Below, one piece after another: positions 5,363-30,514 of a stretch of 64,000 nt of DNA. Under the pieces are notes generated by a model. It saw only the letters and a list, made by a program, of their open reading frames with translations, was not told where the DNA came from and searched no databases. How positions within the stretch are numbered: the first letter of the stretch is position 1; each line of letters opens with the position of its first letter. The position numbers were made by a program, and so were the translations under genes. The DNA is taken from contig NZ_JAPDPI010000003.1 in assembly GCF_026013615.1 (NCBI RefSeq), positions 1-64,000 of the forward strand, given 5' to 3'. The stretch comes from Plebeiibacterium marinum (GTDB lineage: Bacteria; Bacteroidota; Bacteroidia; Bacteroidales; Marinilabiliaceae).

Positions 5363-7870
5363 CTACTCTAAAAGTTTGATAAAGTAACCACCAACCACTG
5401 AACGGGCTTGAAATCCTACCTGACGTGCATTCGGAGTTTCATACCAGTCTGTCATAGGAACACGGTCTTCGGTTTCTGTTACAAACAGGTGTAAAGGATC
5501 AATAAACTGTTGGAATTCTTCATTACTATTAGCCATGGTTGCTGTCCATACTACCCAATCGGATTTTGTATAGGTACGACGATTATCCAATGGCAAACCA
5601 TATTTGTTTTGTTTGGTCAGGTAATAATCAATCTCTGTTTGTATCACATCCTTTGGAAAGATATTAAACCCTAGAAGTTTATCCCAAACCAGGTTATACT
5701 TCTGACTCCAGGTACCCGGTTTATCAAAAGTCAGCTTATAGTGATCGCCATCTTTAGCCATCTCTATCCATTTTGCTGCCATATCCTTTGCAGCCGACAT
5801 ATATTTATCTGCAATTTCATTTTTGTTAAGCATAGAAGCTAAACGCCCGAAACTGGCTACTCCCATAATTGCCTTAGCCGAAAGGTTAACATTATGAGCA
5901 AAATGTCCTGCAAAATCATCAGTACATAACTGATTTTCCGGATCCAATCCGTTTTCCAACAGGTAATCAGCCCAAACAGTCAACACTTCCCAATGTTTTG
6001 CTGCATAGTCAGCATTTCTCTCCTGATGCGCAATGGCTGCGGTTAATACCAACATATTTCCACATTCCTCAACAGGCATATCGCCACCGTATGTTTGTCC
6101 GTTAGCCAATGGATAAGTACCAACATCGTGTGCAGCAAAAGGCTTTGTCCATTTTCCGCTTTCTGAATAATAAAAAATTGGGTTCAGCATTCCTTTTAAT
6201 AATTCAGGATTATACTTTAAATACAAAGGAGCCGAAGGGTAAGTCACATCAACCGTTCCGATAGATCCGTTACTAAAGTTTTCTTTCGACAAGAACAGGA
6301 TATTTCCTTGCTTATCTTTTACGAGCTTATGGGCTGCAATGGATTGACGGAAAGCCAACACACATAATTCAGCATAGTTTTTACCACCGGCATTCAGGGC
6401 TTCGTTCCAAACCTGGTTATCCAGTTTATTACATGCTTCAACAACCGATACATAATCGTTTGCTGCCAAGGTTAAAACCTCATCAAACGACACTTCTCCA
6501 TCATGAGCCCACCAGGCCTTTAGGTTATCGCCAAAATACTGAATAGACTCCACATCATCATAAGCCACCATAACTGTGCTTTGGGCTGGTTTTAATCCAA
6601 CAGACCCCAGGTTATCGCATACAAACATTGAAACCATTTCCTGACTCGGACGGGTTACTTTTGAAGCCAGCTGTGAGCTAATCATACCTTTTTGCTTAAA
6701 GTCGTTTTTCACGCCATTATAGTCACCTAACCCAACTGTTTTATCCTGATCAGCTGCTGCCACTAAATAAGCATATCCCCAATCAATACGCACATTATCA
6801 CCTTTACGCTTTAATATTTCCTGCTTGGTGGTACCTGCTTTAACATAGGCCAGGTTGTTAATAGTACCCCTGGTTACTTCTGCCTCTTGCGAAGGGCTAT
6901 TTACTGCCCACTCCGGAGTCATTTCAAAGAAAACCTGAACCTCATGCTCTTTGCCATCATTGGATACCACATCATAATCCACATAATTTACCGGACGTGA
7001 AAGAATATCCAGGTCGCCAGGCAGCAATGGAGAAATAAACCTTACATCCAAATCAACCGGACCACACGTAAAGTTATAGTGCGTTTGAGTTGCAGACAAA
7101 GCTACCTTGTTTTGAACCGCAGTTTTTGAAAAAGCCTGCTCCCTGTCATTCTCCACATAAATACCAAAATCAAGGTAAGCCAAACCACCCCTGTCTTGGC
7201 AATAAGCAGCAAATACATTGTTTCCATCCTTTTTTAACAAGGAAGCATCAAACTCAACAATACGGTTATCTCTGGCACTGTTACCAGTATTCAACACTTC
7301 TTCCCCATTTAAAAACAACACAAAATCATCATCATGCGAGTATCTTAAATATACCTTTGATACACCAGATAAATCAACACCTGAAACCTCGCGGCGCACC
7401 CAGATATGTTCTGTTTCCCAGATTGTTTGTGCATTTTGGTTGCCGTTGTTTCCAAAGGCTCCATTACCTTCTTTCCATGATTTATCATTAAAATCAGATT
7501 TGAACCAGTTTTTTGATGGCTTGCTGGTAGTGTATTTTGCCTTCCATGCTCCTTCACTGGCCATAGGCACAATTGCTTTTAACGGGATATCTTCTTTACC
7601 CAAAAAACGATATACTTCGCCATCAACCCTGATTGCACCAATTAAGGATTGAGTTTTCCCTGTCCAGTGACGGACAGGGATATCAAAAAGCTGGTCTGAC
7701 ATAGACCATGCACTGGTATAAGGATCAATTGTTATTAAAGGATAAGCAGGAGCACGCATCTCCGCTGTATATGAAGCTTGCTTATTTGAACTCATTGTAC
7801 ATGAAGACAATATAGTGCAAAACACAACCACCCCATTTAAACCATGTTTAATTAATTTCTTTAATTTCAT
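5363..7870 (-). CDS. DUF4965 / glutaminase-A-like lipoprotein (paralogue 1)
   Basis: 835 residues. A lipoprotein signal ends in LSSC with Cys24. The N-terminal block (about 40-70, PAYPLITIDPYTSAWS) matches the opening of the DUF4964/DUF5127/DUF4965/DUF1793 family, named after fungal glutaminase A. A jelly-roll module typical of sugar-binding domains is inserted at about 105-230. The C-terminal half is an (alpha/alpha)-toroid region with DVGTYPLANG and LCTDDFAGHFAHN. The glutaminase name is by homology only; glycan-active proteins with similar folds make this doubtful in a PUL. A close paralogue lies at 28010-30514, and the two proteins share the same C-terminal 17 residues. The gene lies outside the GH76-GH125 operon and has its own motif and terminator. 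Confidence 0.85.
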   Translation of the reverse strand: MKLKKLIKHGLNGVVVFCTILSSCTMSSNKQASYTAEMRAPAYPLITIDPYTSAWSMSDQLFDIPVRHWTGKTQSLIGAIRVDGEVYRFLGKEDIPLKAIVPMASEGAWKAKYTTSKPSKNWFKSDFNDKSWKEGNGAFGNNGNQNAQTIWETEHIWVRREVSGVDLSGVSKVYLRYSHDDDFVLFLNGEEVLNTGNSARDNRIVEFDASLLKKDGNNVFAAYCQDRGGLAYLDFGIYVENDREQAFSKTAVQNKVALSATQTHYNFTCGPVDLDVRFISPLLPGDLDILSRPVNYVDYDVVSNDGKEHEVQVFFEMTPEWAVNSPSQEAEVTRGTINNLAYVKAGTTKQEILKRKGDNVRIDWGYAYLVAAADQDKTVGLGDYNGVKNDFKQKGMISSQLASKVTRPSQEMVSMFVCDNLGSVGLKPAQSTVMVAYDDVESIQYFGDNLKAWWAHDGEVSFDEVLTLAANDYVSVVEACNKLDNQVWNEALNAGGKNYAELCVLAFRQSIAAHKLVKDKQGNILFLSKENFSNGSIGTVDVTYPSAPLYLKYNPELLKGMLNPIFYYSESGKWTKPFAAHDVGTYPLANGQTYGGDMPVEECGNMLVLTAAIAHQERNADYAAKHWEVLTVWADYLLENGLDPENQLCTDDFAGHFAHNVNLSAKAIMGVASFGRLASMLNKNEIADKYMSAAKDMAAKWIEMAKDGDHYKLTFDKPGTWSQKYNLVWDKLLGFNIFPKDVIQTEIDYYLTKQNKYGLPLDNRRTYTKSDWVVWTATMANSNEEFQQFIDPLHLFVTETEDRVPMTDWYETPNARQVGFQARSVVGGYFIKLLE

Positions 7871-7968: not shown

Positions 7969-8048
7969 GTATTATTTGTAATAATCATAATTGGCATGAT
8001 ATTTTATCACTAGTGTCCAACTAAAATATTAATCTTCAGACTTACATT

Positions 8049-8424
8049 ACTTTTGTCTCAAGCCGACGGGCTTTTACTTTAGCTCACGAATTATAATATA
8101 GGTGTTCGTGATTTCCGCTTTGCTCCAATTCTTCCTTCAGCTGAAGAAAGTAAACAAAGAAAGCCGCCGCTGACATGAAAAAGCTAAAAAATCACCGCTC
8201 TTCGCTAAAAGAAAAGAACTCTCCCGTTTTAGAATTTGTAGGGATTTGAAATTCAAATCCCACAATGTTCTTGAACGGGATTTTCTTTCTTAACGCTTCG
8301 TTTACTGATTTTTTTAACGCTTTTACATGAAGGCGGTTTAGATACCCTAACATATCGCTCATTATCATATAACCTTTATTAGTATTAACAATATGCATAC
8401 TCTTATATTTTTGTGACGGTCAGT
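8049..8424. repeat. Dispersed hairpin-rich repeat, copy 2
   Basis: Matches 1-282 closely apart from two replaced or inserted loops. One loop near 8080-8130 contains the inverted pair TCACGAA/TTCGTGA. The other near 8220-8280 has outer arms TCCCGTT/AACGGGA around an inner pair GGGATTTGAA/TTCAAATCCC with a one-base centre. The conserved parts form the arms of a larger imperfect inverted repeat. A 68-codon minus-strand frame crosses it, but it follows the repeat structure and is not supported as a gene. Confidence 0.85.
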
Positions 8425-8501
8425 TAAGATATTTCATGAAAATTGGTGAGAGATAACTTTCACTCCGAACGCACAAGGGCATCGCCTCCGCAGAGTAGCT
8501 G

Positions 8502-8722
8502 TGACTAAATGGTTATTCCCGGAAATATCAAAATTTTGGCCGTGACTAAACGGTCATGGGGCAAAAAAATGGTTTTGGAGCCTTTAACTAAACAGTCATG
8601 GCCATTTTTTTGCTTTTTTGGCCCGTGACTAAATGGTTAAAGGGCATTTTAAAAAAAAAATGGGCCTTGACTATATAGTTACGCCCCATTTAATTCAAAA
8701 GTCGGGTTTGACTGTTTAGTCA
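8502..8722. repeat. Array of six phased TGACT-N4-AGTCA palindromes
   Basis: Copies start at 8502, 8543, 8585, 8626, 8668 and 8709, giving spacings of 41, 42, 41, 42 and 41 bp. Each core is 14 bp, for example TGACTAAACGGTCA or the perfect TGACTGTTTAGTCA. Several cores are bracketed by complementary GGCC-rich flanks and separated by A/T-rich linkers. In five of six copies every arm difference still pairs as G-U in plus-strand RNA. It lies 3' of the GH76 gene and next to the hairpin-rich repeat. No known family was recognised. Confidence 0.85.
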
Positions 8723-8780
8723 CGGGGTAAATTTTTCAACGGACTGTTGATTGACATCGGGATATGGAGTAAAAACATAA

Positions 8781-8799
8781 CCCCATGCGTTGCATGGGG
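8781..8799 (-). terminator. Terminator after the GH76 gene
   Basis: Perfect 8-bp stem CCCCATGC/GCATGGGG with a 3-nt loop, 35 bp beyond the stop at 8834. A T-rich stretch (TTATGTTTTTAC) follows on the minus strand. Confidence 0.75.
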
Positions 8800-8833
8800 C
8801 CAGGATAAAATCGAGTTTTCTTTCAAACACTGT

Positions 8834-9961
8834 TTACTTCAATTTTGGAGGAACAAGCTGCATCAGGGCAGGACAACCACTGGCATCATAAACTTCAATA
8901 TCCCCTTCGGGGCATGGAATAGCAAAATCTTTGAAAGTCAATTTTCTCATCTGATCCCTGTTTTTCCAGGAGTTGTTGATATTTTTTAGCAACCACTTAT
9001 GATATTGAGGCTGATCACAATCTATTAGTTCAACAATGTATTGGGCAAAAATTGCGGCATAAACGCCTTGTTCTATTCCATTTTCGAATGGGAACATTCC
9101 TTTTGCATCGCACATTTCGTTTTTTACATAATCAGCAGCCAAAACAGCATCCGCTAAATATTTTGATTCATGTGTAATTTGATACAAGGCAACTCCAGCC
9201 CCTATACAGCTTCCCTGATTATACAAGTGCATTTTCCAATGCGGTTCCCCATCACCATGTTTGGAATCGGCAACGGCTCCGGTGGATTTATTAAACAAAT
9301 TATCACCAGACCAATCGTATATTTCTTTTGCCTTGTTTAAATAATCCTCTTTTCCGGTAAGCTGATACAATAAAGCCGAACCAACAACTGTAGGGTAATT
9401 GATACATGACATTTTACCTTTCCACTCGTCACGTTTCCATCCCCATCGCATACCGCCTTTTTCTTTATCATACGATCCACGTTCATCAATCCCTTCCGAA
9501 CCATACCATACCCGATCAAAACCGGAAACAGCCAATTCAAGGTATTTATCTTCTCCTGTTATCTCGTATGCACGGCAGAGTGATATAACCCACCACATAA
9601 TGTCATCATAAATAAACCATTCTGTTGTGTTGTTCCAGTTAAAATTATCGTACTGGCCACAGGCGCCTTCGTATATCTCATGTATCAGCTTAAAATATTT
9701 TTGATCCTTGGTACGACTGTAGGCATTCATAATCATATCCCAGTAAATAGCCTGGGTCCAAATGGCTGCACGCTGTTTTTTTTCGGTGGATATGTTATAA
9801 ACTTTTGTAGAGGTATTATAAAAGGCTTTGTTAAAGGCATCGATGCAAACTGTTGCCTCATGTGGGGTAAAGTTTGTTTTGCTTTTTTCATTGTTTTTTC
9901 TCCTGTCGCAATTAGCATGTAAAAAAGTAAATAACAAGAGTATGGCGGATATGTATTTCAT
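8834..9961 (-). CDS. GH76 endo-alpha-1,6-mannanase
   Basis: 375 residues, the usual GH76 length. The N-terminus is a signal with a Cys at position 18 (LHANC), which could be lipidated although the lipobox is not canonical. The family's paired catalytic aspartates are Asp119-Asp120 in WFIYDDIMWW, and MRWGWKRDEWKG fits the active-site cleft region. GH76 enzymes cut the alpha-1,6-mannan backbone of fungal mannan and related glycans. Placed with SusC/SusD and upstream GH38 and GH125, it supports an alpha-mannan PUL. Surface or periplasmic location cannot be decided here. Its 5' region contains the heptamer array 9981-10029. Confidence 0.92.
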   Translation of the reverse strand: MKYISAILLLFTFLHANCDRRKNNEKSKTNFTPHEATVCIDAFNKAFYNTSTKVYNISTEKKQRAAIWTQAIYWDMIMNAYSRTKDQKYFKLIHEIYEGACGQYDNFNWNNTTEWFIYDDIMWWVISLCRAYEITGEDKYLELAVSGFDRVWYGSEGIDERGSYDKEKGGMRWGWKRDEWKGKMSCINYPTVVGSALLYQLTGKEDYLNKAKEIYDWSGDNLFNKSTGAVADSKHGDGEPHWKMHLYNQGSCIGAGVALYQITHESKYLADAVLAADYVKNEMCDAKGMFPFENGIEQGVYAAIFAQYIVELIDCDQPQYHKWLLKNINNSWKNRDQMRKLTFKDFAIPCPEGDIEVYDASGCPALMQLVPPKLK

Positions 9962-24265: not shown

Positions 24266-26122
24266 TTATTTTTTAACAACTTTGTAAGTATTGGTAACAC
24301 CTTCACTTACAACCTGAACAAGATAAATACCTGGGTTATCAACTGTAAAAGTTGCTGATAATCCATCTGGTTGTATTTGCTTAATCACGTTACCGCTTAA
24401 ATCGTAAACAGTAATGGTTCCTGACTGATCTTTAAATTCAACATTAAATACATCATTGGATACAGTTGGATATAAAGTAGAAATTTTAGCTACTGTTTTT
24501 TCAACACCTGTAGGAGTAATTCCGTAAGCTTCACACCTTTGAGCTACTGTTGCTGCATCCATTTCACCACTGTAAATATTAAACTCTTCAACTGTTGCAA
24601 CCAATAAAGGATCATCCCAGGTTCCAACACCTAAATAAGCTACTTCTGTTCCAACATTTGAAATAAAGTTTGCGGCGTCAGAAATTTGCGATTCACTAAC
24701 TAAAGCTCCATCTAAATAATACTTAACATATCCATAACTCATAACAACTACATAGTGGTGCGTTGTAAATGGTTCTTGTTCCGGACAAGCTGCGTAGGCC
24801 TTAACATCGTTGTTTGCACTAATTTGTGCCCAGCTTTCATTAGCATCAGAACCATCTGTTAAACGTAACAGTGTAGCATTATCATTACCATTACCTCCAA
24901 AATAATACAATATGGTGTACCCCCCATTTTCGCCCAATGTAACATGGCCCTCAAATGTAATTGATGGATAAGTATTTATAGCAATTGCTGCAGGATCTAA
25001 AACGATTTTAGCTGATTGATCACCATCTGCATGCCATGCTCCATCAAATACTGTCATTACATCTGTTGTTGTACCATTCGCTCCTCCAACTACATCATTT
25101 ACAGCAAAAGCATCTTCAAAATCGTACGAATGCTTTAATGTAAGATCAGTGTTCACAAGGTAATGAATTGAATAGTCAGTCTGACCATTGTCAGTAATAA
25201 CTGAAATAGTAATATCTCCGGATTCATCAGATACATCAATACCACTTAAATCCATATTACTATTGCCGTCCATAACAAGTGCGCCTTCTTCAAAGGCCAC
25301 AGCTAACACGTCCATTGAAGTTGTTCCGGGATTTAAAACGGCAGTATATTCTGTTACAGATGGGTTAAATGATGGGTAAAGTGATCCATTTGTAACCGAA
25401 AGGCTTTTTAATTTTGAATCATCGGTAACAACCCCAAAATCTTTTGCATGAGTATAAATAGTAGAGTTATCTAATTCGCCTTCATAAATATTCCATTCAT
25501 AAATGGTGCCTTTAAAACTTTTATCCGGCCAGGTACTTTTACCAATATACGCGGTAGCAGGATGATCAGGATGAGTACCTATGTTTGAAATTAAATCACC
25601 TGATGTGGCTTTTTCGCTAACTAAAACCCCATCAATATATAATTTTAATGCTTGTTTGGTTAAAATAGACACATAATGATGTGTTTCACCATTTACAGGT
25701 TCCGGACCAGCAGCACCCAAACCGTTAACTTCTGTTTGACAGGTATTACTACCACGCACTATTGATAACAAATAATCATTACTAGCCCTATATCCATTAA
25801 AAGACCATACTGCATTGTACTCACCATCAGCATTCTCACCCCTCTTTACATAGGTTTCTACTGTTATGGATTCATATTCATTTAAAGCTATAGCTGCAGC
25901 ATCAAATTCAATAAACTCATCTCCGGCAAACATTACGTAACCACCATTCTCAAACACACCTCCAGATACTGTACCGTTTACATTACCTACAACATCATTG
26001 GCAGTGCCATCTTCAAATGTGTATGAGTGTTTTAGAGTTTGGGCATTCATGGTTGTAATACCCAAAAGACCGCTTAAAGCAGAAGTTAAAATAAATTTTG
26101 AAAGTAAACTTCTTTTTTTCAT
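24266..26122 (-). CDS. Secreted double LamG-like protein with T9SS tail
   Basis: 618 residues from the ATG at 26122, chosen because it opens a clear signal peptide (MKKRSLLSK to MNAQ). Two concanavalin/LamG-like domains (about 30-190 and 290-480) each contain the YIGxxTW or YLGVGTWDD strand pattern. They are separated by a cadherin-like beta-sandwich (about 200-285). The C-terminal 80 residues form a type IX sorting domain (TVYDLSGNVIKQI, then GIYLVQVVSEG). No enzymatic motif is seen, so a role in surface or extracellular glycan binding is inferred. It is monocistronic, with a promoter-like motif upstream and a strong terminator. Confidence 0.85.
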   Translation of the reverse strand: MKKRSLLSKFILTSALSGLLGITTMNAQTLKHSYTFEDGTANDVVGNVNGTVSGGVFENGGYVMFAGDEFIEFDAAAIALNEYESITVETYVKRGENADGEYNAVWSFNGYRASNDYLLSIVRGSNTCQTEVNGLGAAGPEPVNGETHHYVSILTKQALKLYIDGVLVSEKATSGDLISNIGTHPDHPATAYIGKSTWPDKSFKGTIYEWNIYEGELDNSTIYTHAKDFGVVTDDSKLKSLSVTNGSLYPSFNPSVTEYTAVLNPGTTSMDVLAVAFEEGALVMDGNSNMDLSGIDVSDESGDITISVITDNGQTDYSIHYLVNTDLTLKHSYDFEDAFAVNDVVGGANGTTTDVMTVFDGAWHADGDQSAKIVLDPAAIAINTYPSITFEGHVTLGENGGYTILYYFGGNGNDNATLLRLTDGSDANESWAQISANNDVKAYAACPEQEPFTTHHYVVVMSYGYVKYYLDGALVSESQISDAANFISNVGTEVAYLGVGTWDDPLLVATVEEFNIYSGEMDAATVAQRCEAYGITPTGVEKTVAKISTLYPTVSNDVFNVEFKDQSGTITVYDLSGNVIKQIQPDGLSATFTVDNPGIYLVQVVSEGVTNTYKVVKK

Positions 26123-26221
26123 AGTTAAAATTTTAATTATTAATAGATTAAATACAGCTAACGACAATCCATCATTTTATTAAATGGCCGTTAACTGCTA
26201 CTATTACAATTACCAAAAACT

Positions 26222-26241
26222 ATTTACTCACACGTTTTTTT
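26222..26241 (-). promoter_or_regulatory. A-tract + GTGAGTAAAT motif before the LamG gene
   Basis: On the minus strand: seven A residues, C, eight nt, GTGAGTAAAT, about 100 bp before the ATG at 26122. Confidence 0.4.
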
Positions 26242-26910
26242 GTTTTTTTTAATCTTTTTTACATTTTTATTAATAAAGTATAGCAAAACCCATGAAGAGG
26301 CTTCTGATTTACAGCTTTGTTATTATGTGGTGTACATGTTTTGGTTCCATGAAGAGGAAAAGTCCCCTCCTGGATATAGCGGTGTACAAAAAGGAGTTAT
26401 GCTTTCAAATTGATAGTTTCTCAAGAATATTTGTATTTTTATGCACAACCATGCAAATACTCTATAAAATCCGTAAAATATGAATCTCGTCAATGGAAAT
26501 GCATCTTTTTGACCGTTAAAATCATCCATTTTCACAAAAAACATACGTTTTTTTTTGCTTAAATAGTACATTGTTAATTGAACTATAAGGAATTAACCAT
26601 TTGACACATCGATTTTCAATGGCTGTATATGATTTTGATGATTTAAAAGGTCGATTGTTAATTGAACTGTTTGTTTTTGATGGTTTAAAAGACCGATTCT
26701 TGTGCAAAATCTAGCATTTGGATGGATAAAAAGGGTGTCCGATTCTTTCCGATTGGGCAAATAATGGTTGAAAAGTACGAATGCCGGGAGTATGCAATAA
26801 ACTGTGTCAACGACAACTTTGATGATAATCATATATTTATAACTAACGCTTGGATTCAAACCATTTTTTGGTAGTTTAGGTTTCGTTTTTACAACGATTA
26901 AACAAGATAA

Positions 26911-27243
26911 ATTTCAACCATTCTTGATTTAGCAGATATTTACCATAATGAGAATATAGATAAATTAGCCTTCAATATTATTGAAAAGTATAGTATTGTA
27001 AAAGGCCGATATGATAATGTATTAAGCGCAAAATACTCAATTCCGACTCATTGGGATATTGGAAAAGTTTACAAGCGTCTAATTATCATGCTGAATAAAA
27101 ACAATGAGAAATCATTGATTGAAAATCTAATAGAAGTATACAACTCGTGGTTATCAAGGAAAATTGAAGACTTTAACAGTAGTGTCTATTATGAAAGTCC
27201 TGAATATCTTTATCAATCTTATTTAAAGGGAGATAACCTATAA
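26911..27243 (+). pseudogene. Decayed plus-strand gene fragment
   Basis: An open frame of 110 codons (begins ISTILDLADIYHNENIDKLA, ends YLYQSYLKGDNL and a stop). It starts immediately after an in-frame TAA with no suitable start codon. The composition (charged, helical, WDIGKVYKRL) looks like real protein rather than noise. In a different frame just upstream, a short open stretch (GFVFTTIKQDKFQPFLI) may be the continuation before a frameshift. The family was not recognised. Confidence 0.5.
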
Positions 27244-27257
27244 ACACCAGCACCTAA

Positions 27258-27385
27258 AGGAGTAGATCGACGATAGGCTAAAAGTCTACAAGAGGACCTC
27301 TCACACCACGACTTTTTACTTCATAAAAAGTACGTACGTGTCTTCCCAACAATATCGGGACAGGCAGTATACGACGGTTCTTTAC
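27258..27385 (-). other. Group II intron 3'-end-like remnant (domains V-VI)
   Basis: On the minus strand the order GAACCGTCGTATAC ... GTACGTAC ... GTGGTGTGAGAGG ... CTACTC recalls domain V and VI of bacterial group II introns. The expected 34-nt domain V is broken by an enlarged loop and by a small hairpin insertion (ACTTTTTA/TAAAAAGT). No reverse transcriptase frame is adjacent, so at best this is a dead remnant. The assignment rests on remembered consensus only. Confidence 0.3.
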
Positions 27386-27419
27386 ATCATGGGGAAAAGA
27401 CTGTTGGTTTTAATTATAA

Positions 27420-27581
27420 AGAAAGACCATTACGACACCATACACTCAACTTAACGTTTATGCAAAAAAGATTCATTTTGAAAGGAAGTTCAAGGTAAGC
27501 GATAAGTTTCTGTTTGATCCAAATATTGAATTGGTAATATTTAACGATGAAACTGAAAAAGGAATTTTATATTGGCAATGA
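27420..27581 (+). pseudogene. Second plus-strand reading-frame fragment
   Basis: 53 open codons ending FNDETEKGILYWQ then TGA. The frame is entered just after an in-frame TAA and has no start codon. The residue pattern (KKIHFERKFKVSDKFLFDPN) looks protein-like. It may be the 3' end of a gene lost by rearrangement, or of the same decayed unit as 26911-27243. Function unknown. Confidence 0.35.
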
Positions 27582-27866
27582 GAATTATATAAATTATTTG
27601 ACTGACCGATATTTATAAAAAGCACAAAACTCTAACATCAAATATATCACATAGTGAGGATTGTTGTTATTTGATAGTTTGTATGGTGTTTGAACACCGC
27701 CGAAGCTTTTGCTTCGGCTATAATTGAATAAAGGTATAACCAAAACAAAAACTTCGGCTAAGTAGAGGTCAGAAGGATTAGCTTTTCAAAGTGCCATACG
27801 CATCATATTTTACACTTTGTGCCACATACTAGACGCCACTGTACTACAAATAAAAATTAGATAACA

Positions 27867-27950
27867 ATGGATTTTTCAAATGTAACAAACGGGATTCTAA
27901 AGTACATTGATACTTGGGAGCAAAAATTGACAGGAACTAAAAAAAGGTAA
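27867..27950 (+). pseudogene. Truncated plus-strand gene start
   Basis: An ATG opens 27 codons (MDFSNVTNGILKYIDTWEQK, then LTGTKKR) before a stop in an A-rich run. The sequence is reminiscent of the N-terminus of DinB-like proteins, but this is too short to assign. Confidence 0.25.
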
Positions 27951-28009
27951 CACCAGACCCGTAATTACAGGACTAATGTTACCCACAGAAATACTAAAAA
28001 ATGTAATAC

Positions 28010-30514
28010 CTATTCTAAAAGTTTAATAAAATATCCTCCTACAACAGAACGGGCCTGGAAGCCAACTTTGCTCCCATCTGTAGTTTCATACCAGTCAGAC
28101 ATTGGAACCCTGTCTTCTGTTTTGGTTACAAACCGGTGAACCGGATCAATGAACTTACCAAATGTTTCCATATCGTTAGCTAAAGTAGCGGTCCATATAA
28201 TCCAGTCGGACTTGGTATAAGTACGACGGTTGTCCAAAGGCAAGCCAAAGCTATTTTGCATGGTTAAATAATAGGCCAGTTCCTTTTCAACCACTTCAGA
28301 TGGGAAAATACCAAGATCCAACAATTTATCCCAAACCAGATTATACTTTTGGCTCCAGGTTCCCGGCTTATCAAATGTTAGTTTATAGTGATCACCATCC
28401 TCAGCCTTTTGGCACCATTGGGCAGCCATATCCCTGGCAGCACTCTGGTACTGATTGGCAAGCCCATCTTTTCCTAACATGTCGGCCAGTTGCGCATAAC
28501 ACGCAACCCCCATGATGGCTTTAACAGAAAGGTTTGCATTGTGAGCAAAGTGCCCTGCAAAATCATCGGTACAAAGCTGATTTTCCGGATCCAGGCCATT
28601 TTCGAGCAGGTAATTTACCCAGGTAGTCAACACATCCCAGTGTTTTTGAGCATAATCTGCATTTCCTTCACGATTGGCAATAGCTGCTGTTAACACCAAC
28701 ATGTTTCCACATTCCTCAACAGGCATATCTCCACCATAAGTTTGTCCGTTAGCCAACGGATAAGTCCCCACATCATGAGCAGCAAAGGGTTTATTCCATT
28801 TCCCGCTCTCAGAATAATAAAAGATCGGGTTTAACATCCCCTTTAATAAATCCGGGTTATATCTTAAAAACAAAGGTGCAGAAGGATAAGTAACATCAAC
28901 AGTACCAATTGATCCGTTACTAAAGTTCTCTTTGGATAAAAACAATATATTGCCTTGCTGATCCTTAACCAATTTATGCGCTGCAATAGCTTGTCGGTAC
29001 GCCAAAACACATAGATCTGCATAATTTTGCCCTCCGGCACTCAAACATTCCTCCCACATATCAACATCAAAACTTTTGCATCTTTCAATAATATCATCAT
29101 GCCCTTTAACAGCCGACACAAGAATATCATCCATTTGAATTTTGCCCTCTTGAGTCCACCAGGCTTTTAGGTTATCTCCAAAATACTGAATAGATTCCTT
29201 ATCATCATATCCAACCATAGCATAACCACTTTCAGGAGCAGCACCCACTTTACCCAGGTTATTGGTTATGGCAAGAGCCGGCATGTTCCTAACCAGGTTA
29301 TCGGCAATAGCTGTTTCAGAACCGGAAATAACACCTTTTTGAACAAATTCTTTTTTCAAATCATGGTAGTCGCCAATGGCAACCACATTAGATGGCGCCT
29401 TATCTGAAGCCAGGTAGGCATATCCCCAGTCTATTCTTAAATCATCTCCCTTTTTCTTTAAAACAGGCTGTTCAACTGTACCTGCTCTGGCAAAGCTTAC
29501 GTTACCCGTTTCGCCCTTACTAACCTCAACAACCTGATGAAGTTCGTTAACAGCCCATTCCGGAGTCTTTTCAATATAAATCTGAACATCATGTTCCTGT
29601 CCATCGTTTGATACCACCTGATAATCGATGTAATTTATAGGACGAGACATCAGGTCAAGATCATCTAAAAGCAATGGAGAAACAAACTGCACATCCAAAT
29701 CAACCGGTCCGCAAGTAAAGTTATACTGGGTTTGGGTTGCCGTAAGTTTAACACTGTTTTGCACAGCTGTCTGAACAAACTGCTCTTTATTTTCACTCTC
29801 CTGATAAATACCGAAATCGACATAAGCCCCACCCATTTTGTTTTTACAGTAGGCAGCTATTACATTTTTAGCCCCAGGATTCAATAGCGATTTATCCAGT
29901 TTCAGTTGCACATCATTATGCCATTCGTAACCTGTTTTTACCAGTTGCTTGCCATTTAAATACAGCTCAAAGGTATCATCATGAGAATAAACCAGATACA
30001 AATCCCTATCCGACAAATTATCAGGCATTACAAATTCCCTGCGAACCCAAATATCTGCAGTTTCCCAAGGGGTTGATAAGGCAGGCATATCCCTGGTACC
30101 AAAAGCTCCCATACCGGTTTTCCAGTTTTTAGCTTTATAGCCTGGTTTTTCCCATTTTCCCGATGGTTTTTCAAAGGAATATTTTCCTTCCCAGGGTTCA
30201 ACTTTAGCCATTGGGATAACAGGTTGCAACCTGATCTCTTCTTTTCCTAAAAAGCGGTAGACTTTACCATCAACCCTTACTGCACCAATTAGTGAATGAA
30301 TACGCCCTGTCCAGTGACGAACCGCATCATCGTACAATTTATCGGTTTTAGACCATGCACAAGTGTACGGGTCAATAGTTATCAATGGGTAGGCCGGAGC
30401 TCTTAACTCTGTTGCCACCGTTTTTTCATTACCTATTCCCTGACAAGAAGACAAACCAATTCCTGTCACAAACAAAACAAGCAAAGCACACAAAAAATTA
30501 CTTTTCTTCATCAT
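28010..30514 (-). CDS. DUF4965 / glutaminase-A-like lipoprotein (paralogue 2)
   Basis: 834 residues from the ATG at 30514, picked because it directly precedes a lipoprotein signal (MMKKSNF to LSSC). Domain order matches the 5363-7870 protein: N-terminal PAYPLITIDPYTCAWS, an inserted jelly-roll (VRREFVMPDNLSD...YSHDDTFELYLNG) and a C-terminal toroid with NGSIGTVDVTYPSAPL, DVGTYPLANG and DRRTYTKSDW-like blocks. The C-terminal half is far more similar to its paralogue than the N-terminal half. Neither copy sits within a SusC operon core, though this one follows PUL B by 135 bp and its terminator. Biochemical activity is unknown; glutaminase naming comes from fungal homologues. Confidence 0.85.
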   Translation of the reverse strand: MMKKSNFLCALLVLFVTGIGLSSCQGIGNEKTVATELRAPAYPLITIDPYTCAWSKTDKLYDDAVRHWTGRIHSLIGAVRVDGKVYRFLGKEEIRLQPVIPMAKVEPWEGKYSFEKPSGKWEKPGYKAKNWKTGMGAFGTRDMPALSTPWETADIWVRREFVMPDNLSDRDLYLVYSHDDTFELYLNGKQLVKTGYEWHNDVQLKLDKSLLNPGAKNVIAAYCKNKMGGAYVDFGIYQESENKEQFVQTAVQNSVKLTATQTQYNFTCGPVDLDVQFVSPLLLDDLDLMSRPINYIDYQVVSNDGQEHDVQIYIEKTPEWAVNELHQVVEVSKGETGNVSFARAGTVEQPVLKKKGDDLRIDWGYAYLASDKAPSNVVAIGDYHDLKKEFVQKGVISGSETAIADNLVRNMPALAITNNLGKVGAAPESGYAMVGYDDKESIQYFGDNLKAWWTQEGKIQMDDILVSAVKGHDDIIERCKSFDVDMWEECLSAGGQNYADLCVLAYRQAIAAHKLVKDQQGNILFLSKENFSNGSIGTVDVTYPSAPLFLRYNPDLLKGMLNPIFYYSESGKWNKPFAAHDVGTYPLANGQTYGGDMPVEECGNMLVLTAAIANREGNADYAQKHWDVLTTWVNYLLENGLDPENQLCTDDFAGHFAHNANLSVKAIMGVACYAQLADMLGKDGLANQYQSAARDMAAQWCQKAEDGDHYKLTFDKPGTWSQKYNLVWDKLLDLGIFPSEVVEKELAYYLTMQNSFGLPLDNRRTYTKSDWIIWTATLANDMETFGKFIDPVHRFVTKTEDRVPMSDWYETTDGSKVGFQARSVVGGYFIKLLE

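Follow-up and report, generated by a model that had tools for sequence, protein, structure and literature searches.

A helically phased palindrome array in Plebeiibacterium marinum and its putative kinship with arrays upstream of DUF6261 genes

Arrays of similar palindromes repeated every 41-42 bp are associated with genes of the DUF6261 (PF19775) family; they lie upstream of the gene, keep a fixed step, and differ in palindrome from gene to gene. One array of this geometry, without such a gene, is present in the window analysed here (64,000 nucleotides from Plebeiibacterium marinum, contig NZ_JAPDPI010000003.1, positions 1 to 64,000). In our judgement the case is evenly balanced that this array is a gene-less copy from a Bacteroidota-centred family of DNA-site arrays whose home is upstream of DUF6261, with DUF6261 putatively binding the dyads. 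The arrays are apparently an undescribed repeat class; no description was found in the literature searched, the scope of which excluded preprints and most subscription papers. The family name DUF6261 turned up in a single paper, on another subject judging by its title, and PF19775 in none. The original prediction, made from the letters of the DNA, had recognised no known element, and Rfam, fold and literature searches likewise gave nothing matching.

Six phased dyads in the window

The array consists of six TRACT-N4-RGTYA dyads at steps of 41, 42, 41, 42 and 41 bp. Palindromic cores had been predicted at 8502, 8543, 8585, 8626, 8668 and 8709, and both these positions and the 41-42 bp steps were borne out. 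The features of the window are as follows.

8501..8723, no strand: whole gene-less ("orphan") array, bounded by GTGACTAAA...TTTAGTCAC, with end-to-end homology to G000:C187:5660-5882
8502..8515, no strand: dyad unit 1, TGACTAAATGGTTA
8543..8556, no strand: dyad unit 2, TGACTAAACGGTCA
8585..8598, no strand: dyad unit 3, TAACTAAACAGTCA
8626..8639, no strand: dyad unit 4, TGACTAAATGGTTA
8668..8681, no strand: dyad unit 5, TGACTATATAGTTA
8709..8722, no strand: dyad unit 6, TGACTGTTTAGTCA
8834..9961, minus strand: flanking gene, GH76-like glycoside hydrolase (PF03663), stop 111 bp from the array
5363..7870, minus strand: other flanking gene, GtaA six-hairpin / DUF5127 / DUF4964, start about 630 bp from the array
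26518..26767, no strand: weaker dispersed element with three loose dyads at 26633, 26675 and 26717 (steps 42 and 42)

Several positions of the 14-mer are degenerate, being purine or pyrimidine (TRACTRNNYRGTYA), and strict palindrome scoring of the window units therefore gave mixed results. Taken over the outer five pairs, the claim that five of the six units keep their arms paired when G-U is allowed was borne out, the exception being unit 3 (TAACT..AGTCA) with its A-C mismatch. The linkers, described earlier as A/T-rich and not conserved, are indeed A/T-rich and variable within the array (mean pairwise identity 0.39, vs 0.77 for the cores), but they are largely common to a second genomic copy. 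A sequence-agnostic detector applied to 127 stretches of 1 kb gave scores of at least 5 in the window for the array at 8502-8722 and for one weaker array at 26633. In dinucleotide-shuffled window DNA, none of 508 stretches scored 6 or more. The window array exceeds chance. The class of DUF6261-linked arrays as defined here calls for three or more similar dyads spaced 41-42 bp apart, and the window array has six.

The array lies on the 3′ side of the GH76-like gene, since the stop of that gene is 111 bp away. A GC-rich inverted repeat resembling a terminator stem (CCCCATGCGTTGCATGGGG, 8781-8799) is located between the array and this stop. Neither the 64-kb window nor the 20 kb surrounding the second copy gave a DUF6261 match, and the array is termed "orphan" for this reason.

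Phased arrays lie upstream of DUF6261 genes

A detector based on geometry alone, requiring 4 or more exact arm pairs out of 6, resemblance of each unit to the next and a step of 38-44, was applied to 146 DUF6261 loci (145 distinct proteins), consisting of the best-scoring 86 and 60 hand-picked among the matches listed; 141 had enough upstream flank. With start codons set by rule and paralogues within one genome not independent, a phased palindrome array was found upstream of 79 of the 141 genes, in comparison with 6 of 137 downstream regions (L095, L115, L134, L138, L139 and L181) and 2 of 705 shuffles. Thus 62 genes were without a detected array, and 39 of 57 genomes had at least one upstream array. 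The value 79/141 is probably a lower bound because exact-arm scoring misses degenerate arrays (the TGACTA copy on contig C187 scored 7.5 in one run and failed another), and units of low complexity, as in L106, may in turn raise it. When steps of 41/42 earned a bonus, in an earlier version of the detector, the counts were 83/141 upstream, 5/137 downstream and 0/725 in shuffles.

The step was nearly constant. Of 329 array steps, 306 were 41-42 bp (191 of 41 bp, 115 of 42 bp, 23 others), with a mean of 41.38 bp, i.e., four turns at about 10.35 bp. When steps of 20-82 were scanned in 3-bp bins with no bonus, 78 loci appeared at 41-43, 36 at 80-82 (the double step), and 0-2 in each of the other bins; the same scan of DNA downstream of DUF6261 gave 4 loci at 41-43. 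The arrays have 2-21 units (3-7 in 71 of the 79) and end at a median of 181 bp before the start codon. The longest gene-linked array, in L168, has 21 units at exactly 41 bp and rather poor dyad symmetry. Constant but deviant steps were observed in L119 (40) and in L122 and L160 (43). The step of 41-42 bp is kept in arrays of unrelated sequence. Geometry is the trait that the arrays share, and because sequence differs at most loci the class can escape sequence-based repeat searches.

DUF6261 itself has a patchy distribution: it was present in 37 of 71 genomes of the family, 27 of 247 in the order sample, 3 of 118 in the phylum sample (the window genome being in each) and 0 of 14 controls, with up to 21 copies per genome. 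Nine genomes of the window genus, including that of the window, held 39 DUF6261 genes among the matches listed; five of these are in the window genome. A TGACTA array within 450 bp upstream was found at none of the 28 genus loci scored; inspection of the DNA revealed other palindromes at the same step. None of the five DUF6261 genes of the window genome has a TGACTA array.

Relatives of the TGACTA class

A search of the own and related genomes, proposed with the original prediction, yielded the second copy and, by a strict three-unit pattern, 20 loci in 84,980 species genomes. Of these loci, 18 are in entries labelled as Bacteroidota, one in an Ignavibacteriales MAG and one in an entry named only "bacterium"; they include Carboxylicivirga, Labilibacter, Saccharicrinis, Sunxiuqinia, Mangrovibacterium, Petrimonas, Capnocytophaga felis, and Bacteroidetes and Bacteroidales MAGs. 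In these relatives a step of 41 or 42 prevails; others are 38 or 40, and double steps also occur. The array DNA had no match at E<=0.001 in 8 genomes of the same genus; among 71 genomes of the family, related arrays were found in two genomes of another genus. The strict pattern gave no locus in viral contigs. A loose-pattern viral scan gave 15 loci (including L051 and L054) that resembled coding or simple repeats, and none was accepted as a relative.

At 10 of the 20 loci, spread over ten assemblies, the first gene beyond the array was DUF6261, and the array was always upstream (L064, L066, L067, L068, L069, L070, L074, L076, L078 in broken form, and L080). DUF6261 was called by Pfam for four of the ten loci and for L061 (the same locus as L070), and by our own profile for the rest. 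The distance from array to gene was 46-412 bp in the nine loci measured. The next gene in L062, a record of 363 bases, could not be judged. Five gene-less loci share an assembly with a gene-linked TGACTA array (L063 with L067, L065 with L064, L071 and L081 with L070, and L073 with L074).

Two side observations concern neighbouring genes. In the Ignavibacteriales MAG, the DUF6261 gene is split over two reading stretches with masked bases (L078:2208-3036), and the array and adjoining Type ISP-like gene resemble the L067 locus. Proteins of ~430 aa with a MAKSKTRKKK-like start lie beyond the array from DUF6261 (L061:5797-9732, with tandem paralogues; L064:1989-3275; L076:5232-6530); the three members scanned matched no Pfam family.

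Gene-less copies in the window genome

The window genome (5.6 Mb, 187 contigs) contains one further copy of the window array, on contig C187, so that only two TGACTA arrays were found in 5.6 Mb. The copy is 87% identical to the window over 8501 to about 8724, and the flanks are unrelated; homology ends at the outermost palindromes. Of the 84 core positions, 4 differ between the two copies, against 25 of the 139 in the linkers (Fisher p=0.004). The gene-less copies thus keep their cores more conserved than their linkers, and the cores look constrained, though neither copy has a DUF6261 gene. The C187 copy lies at most 6 bp from the stop codon of a histidine kinase gene. The one close relative of this kinase found in the genus, with 64% identity, has no array following its stop; because the DNA beyond that stop is unrelated, no insertion junction is readable at the empty site.

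A second class in this genome, TCGG..CCGA, is represented by an array upstream of the DUF6261 gene on C110 and by a relative on C113 that lacks the gene; a control with the reversed pattern gave 0. The C113 relative lies between convergent ORFs, its first linker is similar to that of C110, and one more linker is shared. The 250 bp of the weaker element (26518-26767) share 89.6% identity with a segment located 0.7-0.8 kb upstream of the DUF6261 gene on C44; further copies are present on C98 and C55, and the element is part of a longer repeat, of which 413 bp align with C55. Because the upstream dyads of the C44 gene itself score below the detector threshold, that gene does not figure among the 79 array-bearing genes. 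For this reason, and in view of its loose dyads and the longer repeat around it, the element is weighed lightly. A separate short dispersed repeat (46-58 bp, 76-78% identical) is common to the window (27252-27309) and two other contigs of the same genome (L238:40-97 and L239:6023-6068). In Rfam, window positions 26000-28100 had no bacterial match. By rough ORF calls, 8 of 12 orphan loci lie between co-directional genes, 4 between convergent genes and none between divergent genes; given these rough calls and some incomplete contexts, orphan arrays may have an operator role.

These dispersed copies raise the possibility of a mobile system resembling REPtrons, in which the array, with its ends GTGACTAAA...TTTAGTCAC, is a small non-autonomous element spread by DUF6261, as proposed for TnpAREP and REPs. 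The sharp ends of the TGACTA homology within unrelated flanks, the gene-less relatives within one genome of two more classes (TCGG and the C44-related element), and the co-occurrence of a DUF6261 gene with cognate palindromes are what such a system would produce. However, none of 8 DUF6261 members scanned against NCBIfam matched a transposase family, no target duplication was seen by eye at the two TGACTA copies, and only two such arrays were found in the genome. The homology of the C110/C113 pair extends 8 bp beyond the first palindrome, and REPs are handled as single-stranded hairpins according to PMC8266576, whereas the arrays here share a helical step. We therefore consider this explanation rather unlikely. 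Much of the same evidence suits it, and in part it complements binding by DUF6261, in that arrays get copied.

Each DUF6261 gene tends to have its own palindrome

The consensus palindromes of the 79 arrays are 78 distinct strings, a few of them near-identical (e.g., L083/L085 and L128/L129). Within one genome, paralogues for which an array was detected have different palindromes (e.g., 8 of 8 in G027 and 4 of 4 in the window genome). Mean palindrome similarity was 1.316 within genomes and 1.293 between genomes, and mutual avoidance of palindromes within genomes was not seen. Nearest neighbours in the protein tree share palindromes above chance (1.729, against a null mean of 1.287 and a highest value of 1.723 in 5000 permutations; with the TGACTA group removed, p=0.012). 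Tracking between protein and palindrome is weak (Spearman 0.155 for the whole protein); several 8-column protein segments pass the 95% null of 0.097, and none passes the largest of 300 permutations, 0.152. The L124 and L125 proteins are 88% identical and have different palindromes, and CCTGCA..TGCAGG recurs beside distant proteins (L084, L126, L128, L158 and L210). An N-terminal strand was considered as the specificity element following hints from L124/L125 and L083/L085, and this candidate was unsupported across 85 proteins.

The weak tracking, the differing palindromes of near-identical proteins and the recurrence of one palindrome beside distant proteins are also what would be seen if another regulator bound the palindromes and DUF6261 were merely a target gene. 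Palindromes of paralogues, however, differ as much within as between genomes, and about as many regulators as DUF6261 genes would therefore be needed. A separate regulator is accordingly a distinctly unlikely explanation in our view.

The palindromes appear to behave as double-stranded DNA sites

A composite of 78 arrays places the arms roughly 2-8 bp away from the centre, where identity within an array reaches 0.95; a further, less pronounced symmetric block occupies positions 13-19 bp out. Non-Watson-Crick arm pairs in 45 gene-oriented DUF6261 arrays comprised 40 G-T, 46 A-C and 93 others. Among changed arm cells in 65 arrays, 107 of 125 were single uncompensated changes, 12 were compensated doubles and 6 were other doubles. 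There is no excess of G-T over A-C, and arm changes are mostly uncompensated; the palindromes therefore appear to behave as double-stranded DNA sites and not as RNA hairpins. At positions 2/13 of 22 TGACTA-type arrays we counted GC 41, GT 22, AC 19, AT 19 and CC 2; these arrays are not gene-oriented, so that the GT and AC totals alone are compatible with RNA; GT and AC units do, however, occur together in 6 of the 22. The original prediction had left open structured RNA or an array of protein sites; protein sites on one face of the helix fit better than structured RNA. The DUF6261 link, the dispersed copies and the gene-specific palindromes were absent from that interpretation.

Doubles of any kind were in modest excess in the arms (18 vs 10.4 expected by independence), which could stem from a symmetric protein site or from shape recognition. 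If an extruded cruciform or hairpin were read by its shape, with likeness within an array arising through tandem duplication and conversion, sequence would be free to vary between genes while geometry stayed constant, as is observed; the 12 compensated doubles fit as well. The 107 uncompensated changes, and the four core-base differences between the two orphan copies, none of which is compensated, make recognition by shape very improbable.

RNA from the plus strand of the window gives better folds than shuffled sequence does (z -3.2 and -4.8); for the minus strand the values are -0.4 and -2.7. This folding, together with tandem repeats that differ from gene to gene upstream of a gene for a ~240-aa protein, recalls type III toxin-antitoxin systems, in which a tandem RNA repeat specific to the protein is transcribed upstream of its gene. 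The predicted folds, however, join neighbouring palindromes and do not form one hairpin per unit, G-U is not preferred over A-C in gene-oriented arrays, and a step of four DNA turns runs through unrelated arrays. Linkers are free to diverge, gene-less copies exist, and PADLOC gave no match. A system of this type is thus hardly to be expected here. Over the 64 kb, Rfam gave no match at gathering; its matches at E<=1 in 8000-9000 (microRNA, U5 and sRNA models) were all below the gathering score. Finally, a neutral satellite produced by slippage, with the palindrome incidental, would explain the near-identical linkers of some arrays (0.83 in L060 and L063, as in fresh duplications), but we give it almost no credence: it is already contradicted by core vs linker identities of 0.84/0.49 (L068), 0.96/0.46 (L074) and 0.90/0.46 (L077), by the better-conserved cores of the two orphan copies, and by one and the same step in front of a single gene family, in arrays whose sequences are unrelated.

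DUF6261 and a putative nucleoprotein array

An AlphaFold2 model of the L067 DUF6261 protein from an eight-sequence alignment (pLDDT 88.5, pTM 0.69) is all-helical, with a 51-residue helix. A second DUF6261 fold was made without an alignment and was discarded (pLDDT 38). Foldseek found nothing at E<=0.001 for the L067 model in PDB or viral models; the PDB row of highest probability was LemA protein 2etd (E 0.14, TM 0.53 by target length). Six DUF6261 proteins showed only DUF6261 above the curated cut-off, and the sequence matches to TnrA (E 0.11) and, for one member out of 8, to MarR-type RrpB (E 0.0034) are weak. Across 140 DUF6261 proteins the fixed residues of a D-x-x-R-D motif are each 91-96% conserved, but not in every member of the TGACTA class. 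One member had no tblastn match in phage and plasmid records.

We propose that an array offers mostly 3-7 double-stranded dyad sites, four helical turns apart and all facing one side of the DNA. DUF6261, which is predicted to be all-alpha, or a complex with it, would bind, as a dimer or tetramer, the dyads of its own array. Adjacent dimers may touch along one DNA face and build a cooperative nucleoprotein array, which would control the DUF6261 gene in cis. In trans, it may occupy the dispersed copies, and folding, insulating or marking of chromosomal DNA would be possible roles there. Counting against binding by DUF6261 are the lack of a recognised DNA-binding fold or motif, the L124/L125 mismatch, the weak tracking, the 12 compensated arm doubles (above the level of independence, as shape recognition also predicts), the 62 of 141 genes without a detected array, and the palindromes recurring beside distant proteins; in addition, the five DUF6261 genes of the window genome have no TGACTA array.

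A broader reading, which we offer tentatively and hold to be somewhat doubtful, is a self-addressed DNA system: each of the many paralogues in a genome would read private palindromes exactly four turns apart and build its own one-face nucleoprotein filament, and array copies seeded along the chromosome would make the paralogues parallel, fast-changing address codes by which the genome is organised or marked. DUF6261, a family of unknown function, thereby gains a hypothesis of one gene, one private palindrome and one fixed geometry. The loci also provide dozens of natural candidate protein-site pairs, some recently changed (L124/L125), that are useful for studying the evolution of DNA recognition.

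Comparison with known systems

By analogy, REPtrons are the closest counterpart of the DUF6261-linked arrays. In both, a gene has adjoining cognate palindromes, dispersed copies are intergenic, classes differ between genes, and the palindromes are often in tandem. The REPtron partner TnpAREP/RAYT is an HUH tyrosine nuclease; according to PMC8266576, REPs are handled as single-stranded hairpins and TnpAREP is mostly present in one copy per genome. The partner here is DUF6261, predicted to be all-alpha, with many more copies in some genomes. REP palindromes carry a GTAG or CGTC foot, and the accessible portions of PMC8266576 and PMC3733652 describe no fixed four-turn step, whereas DUF6261 arrays have one. 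By eye, neither GTAG nor CGTC was found at the feet of window units 2-6; a GTAG does occur 3 bp ahead of unit 1 (8495-8498), but beyond the limits of the copied element, and the second copy has none there. Because the partner family and the foot motif do not match, we do not file the DUF6261 arrays as a REPtron.

CRISPR arrays also have regular palindromic repeats with variable intervening DNA; the core here is only 14 bp, and the linkers are not unique spacers, being shared between the window and C187 copies, within several arrays and often between units. Type III toxin-antitoxin systems (ToxIN, CptIN, TenpIN) have a gene-specific tandem repeat upstream of the protein gene, whereas DUF6261 arrays show no G-U preference in their arms, have divergent linkers, include gene-less arrays and lack a family match. 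Helically phased operators and partition centromeres (parC, parH, tubC) place sites upstream of the gene for the binding protein, on one DNA face and specific to each system; DUF6261 arrays differ from them in being chromosomal, in having many paralogues per genome, and in their four-turn step.
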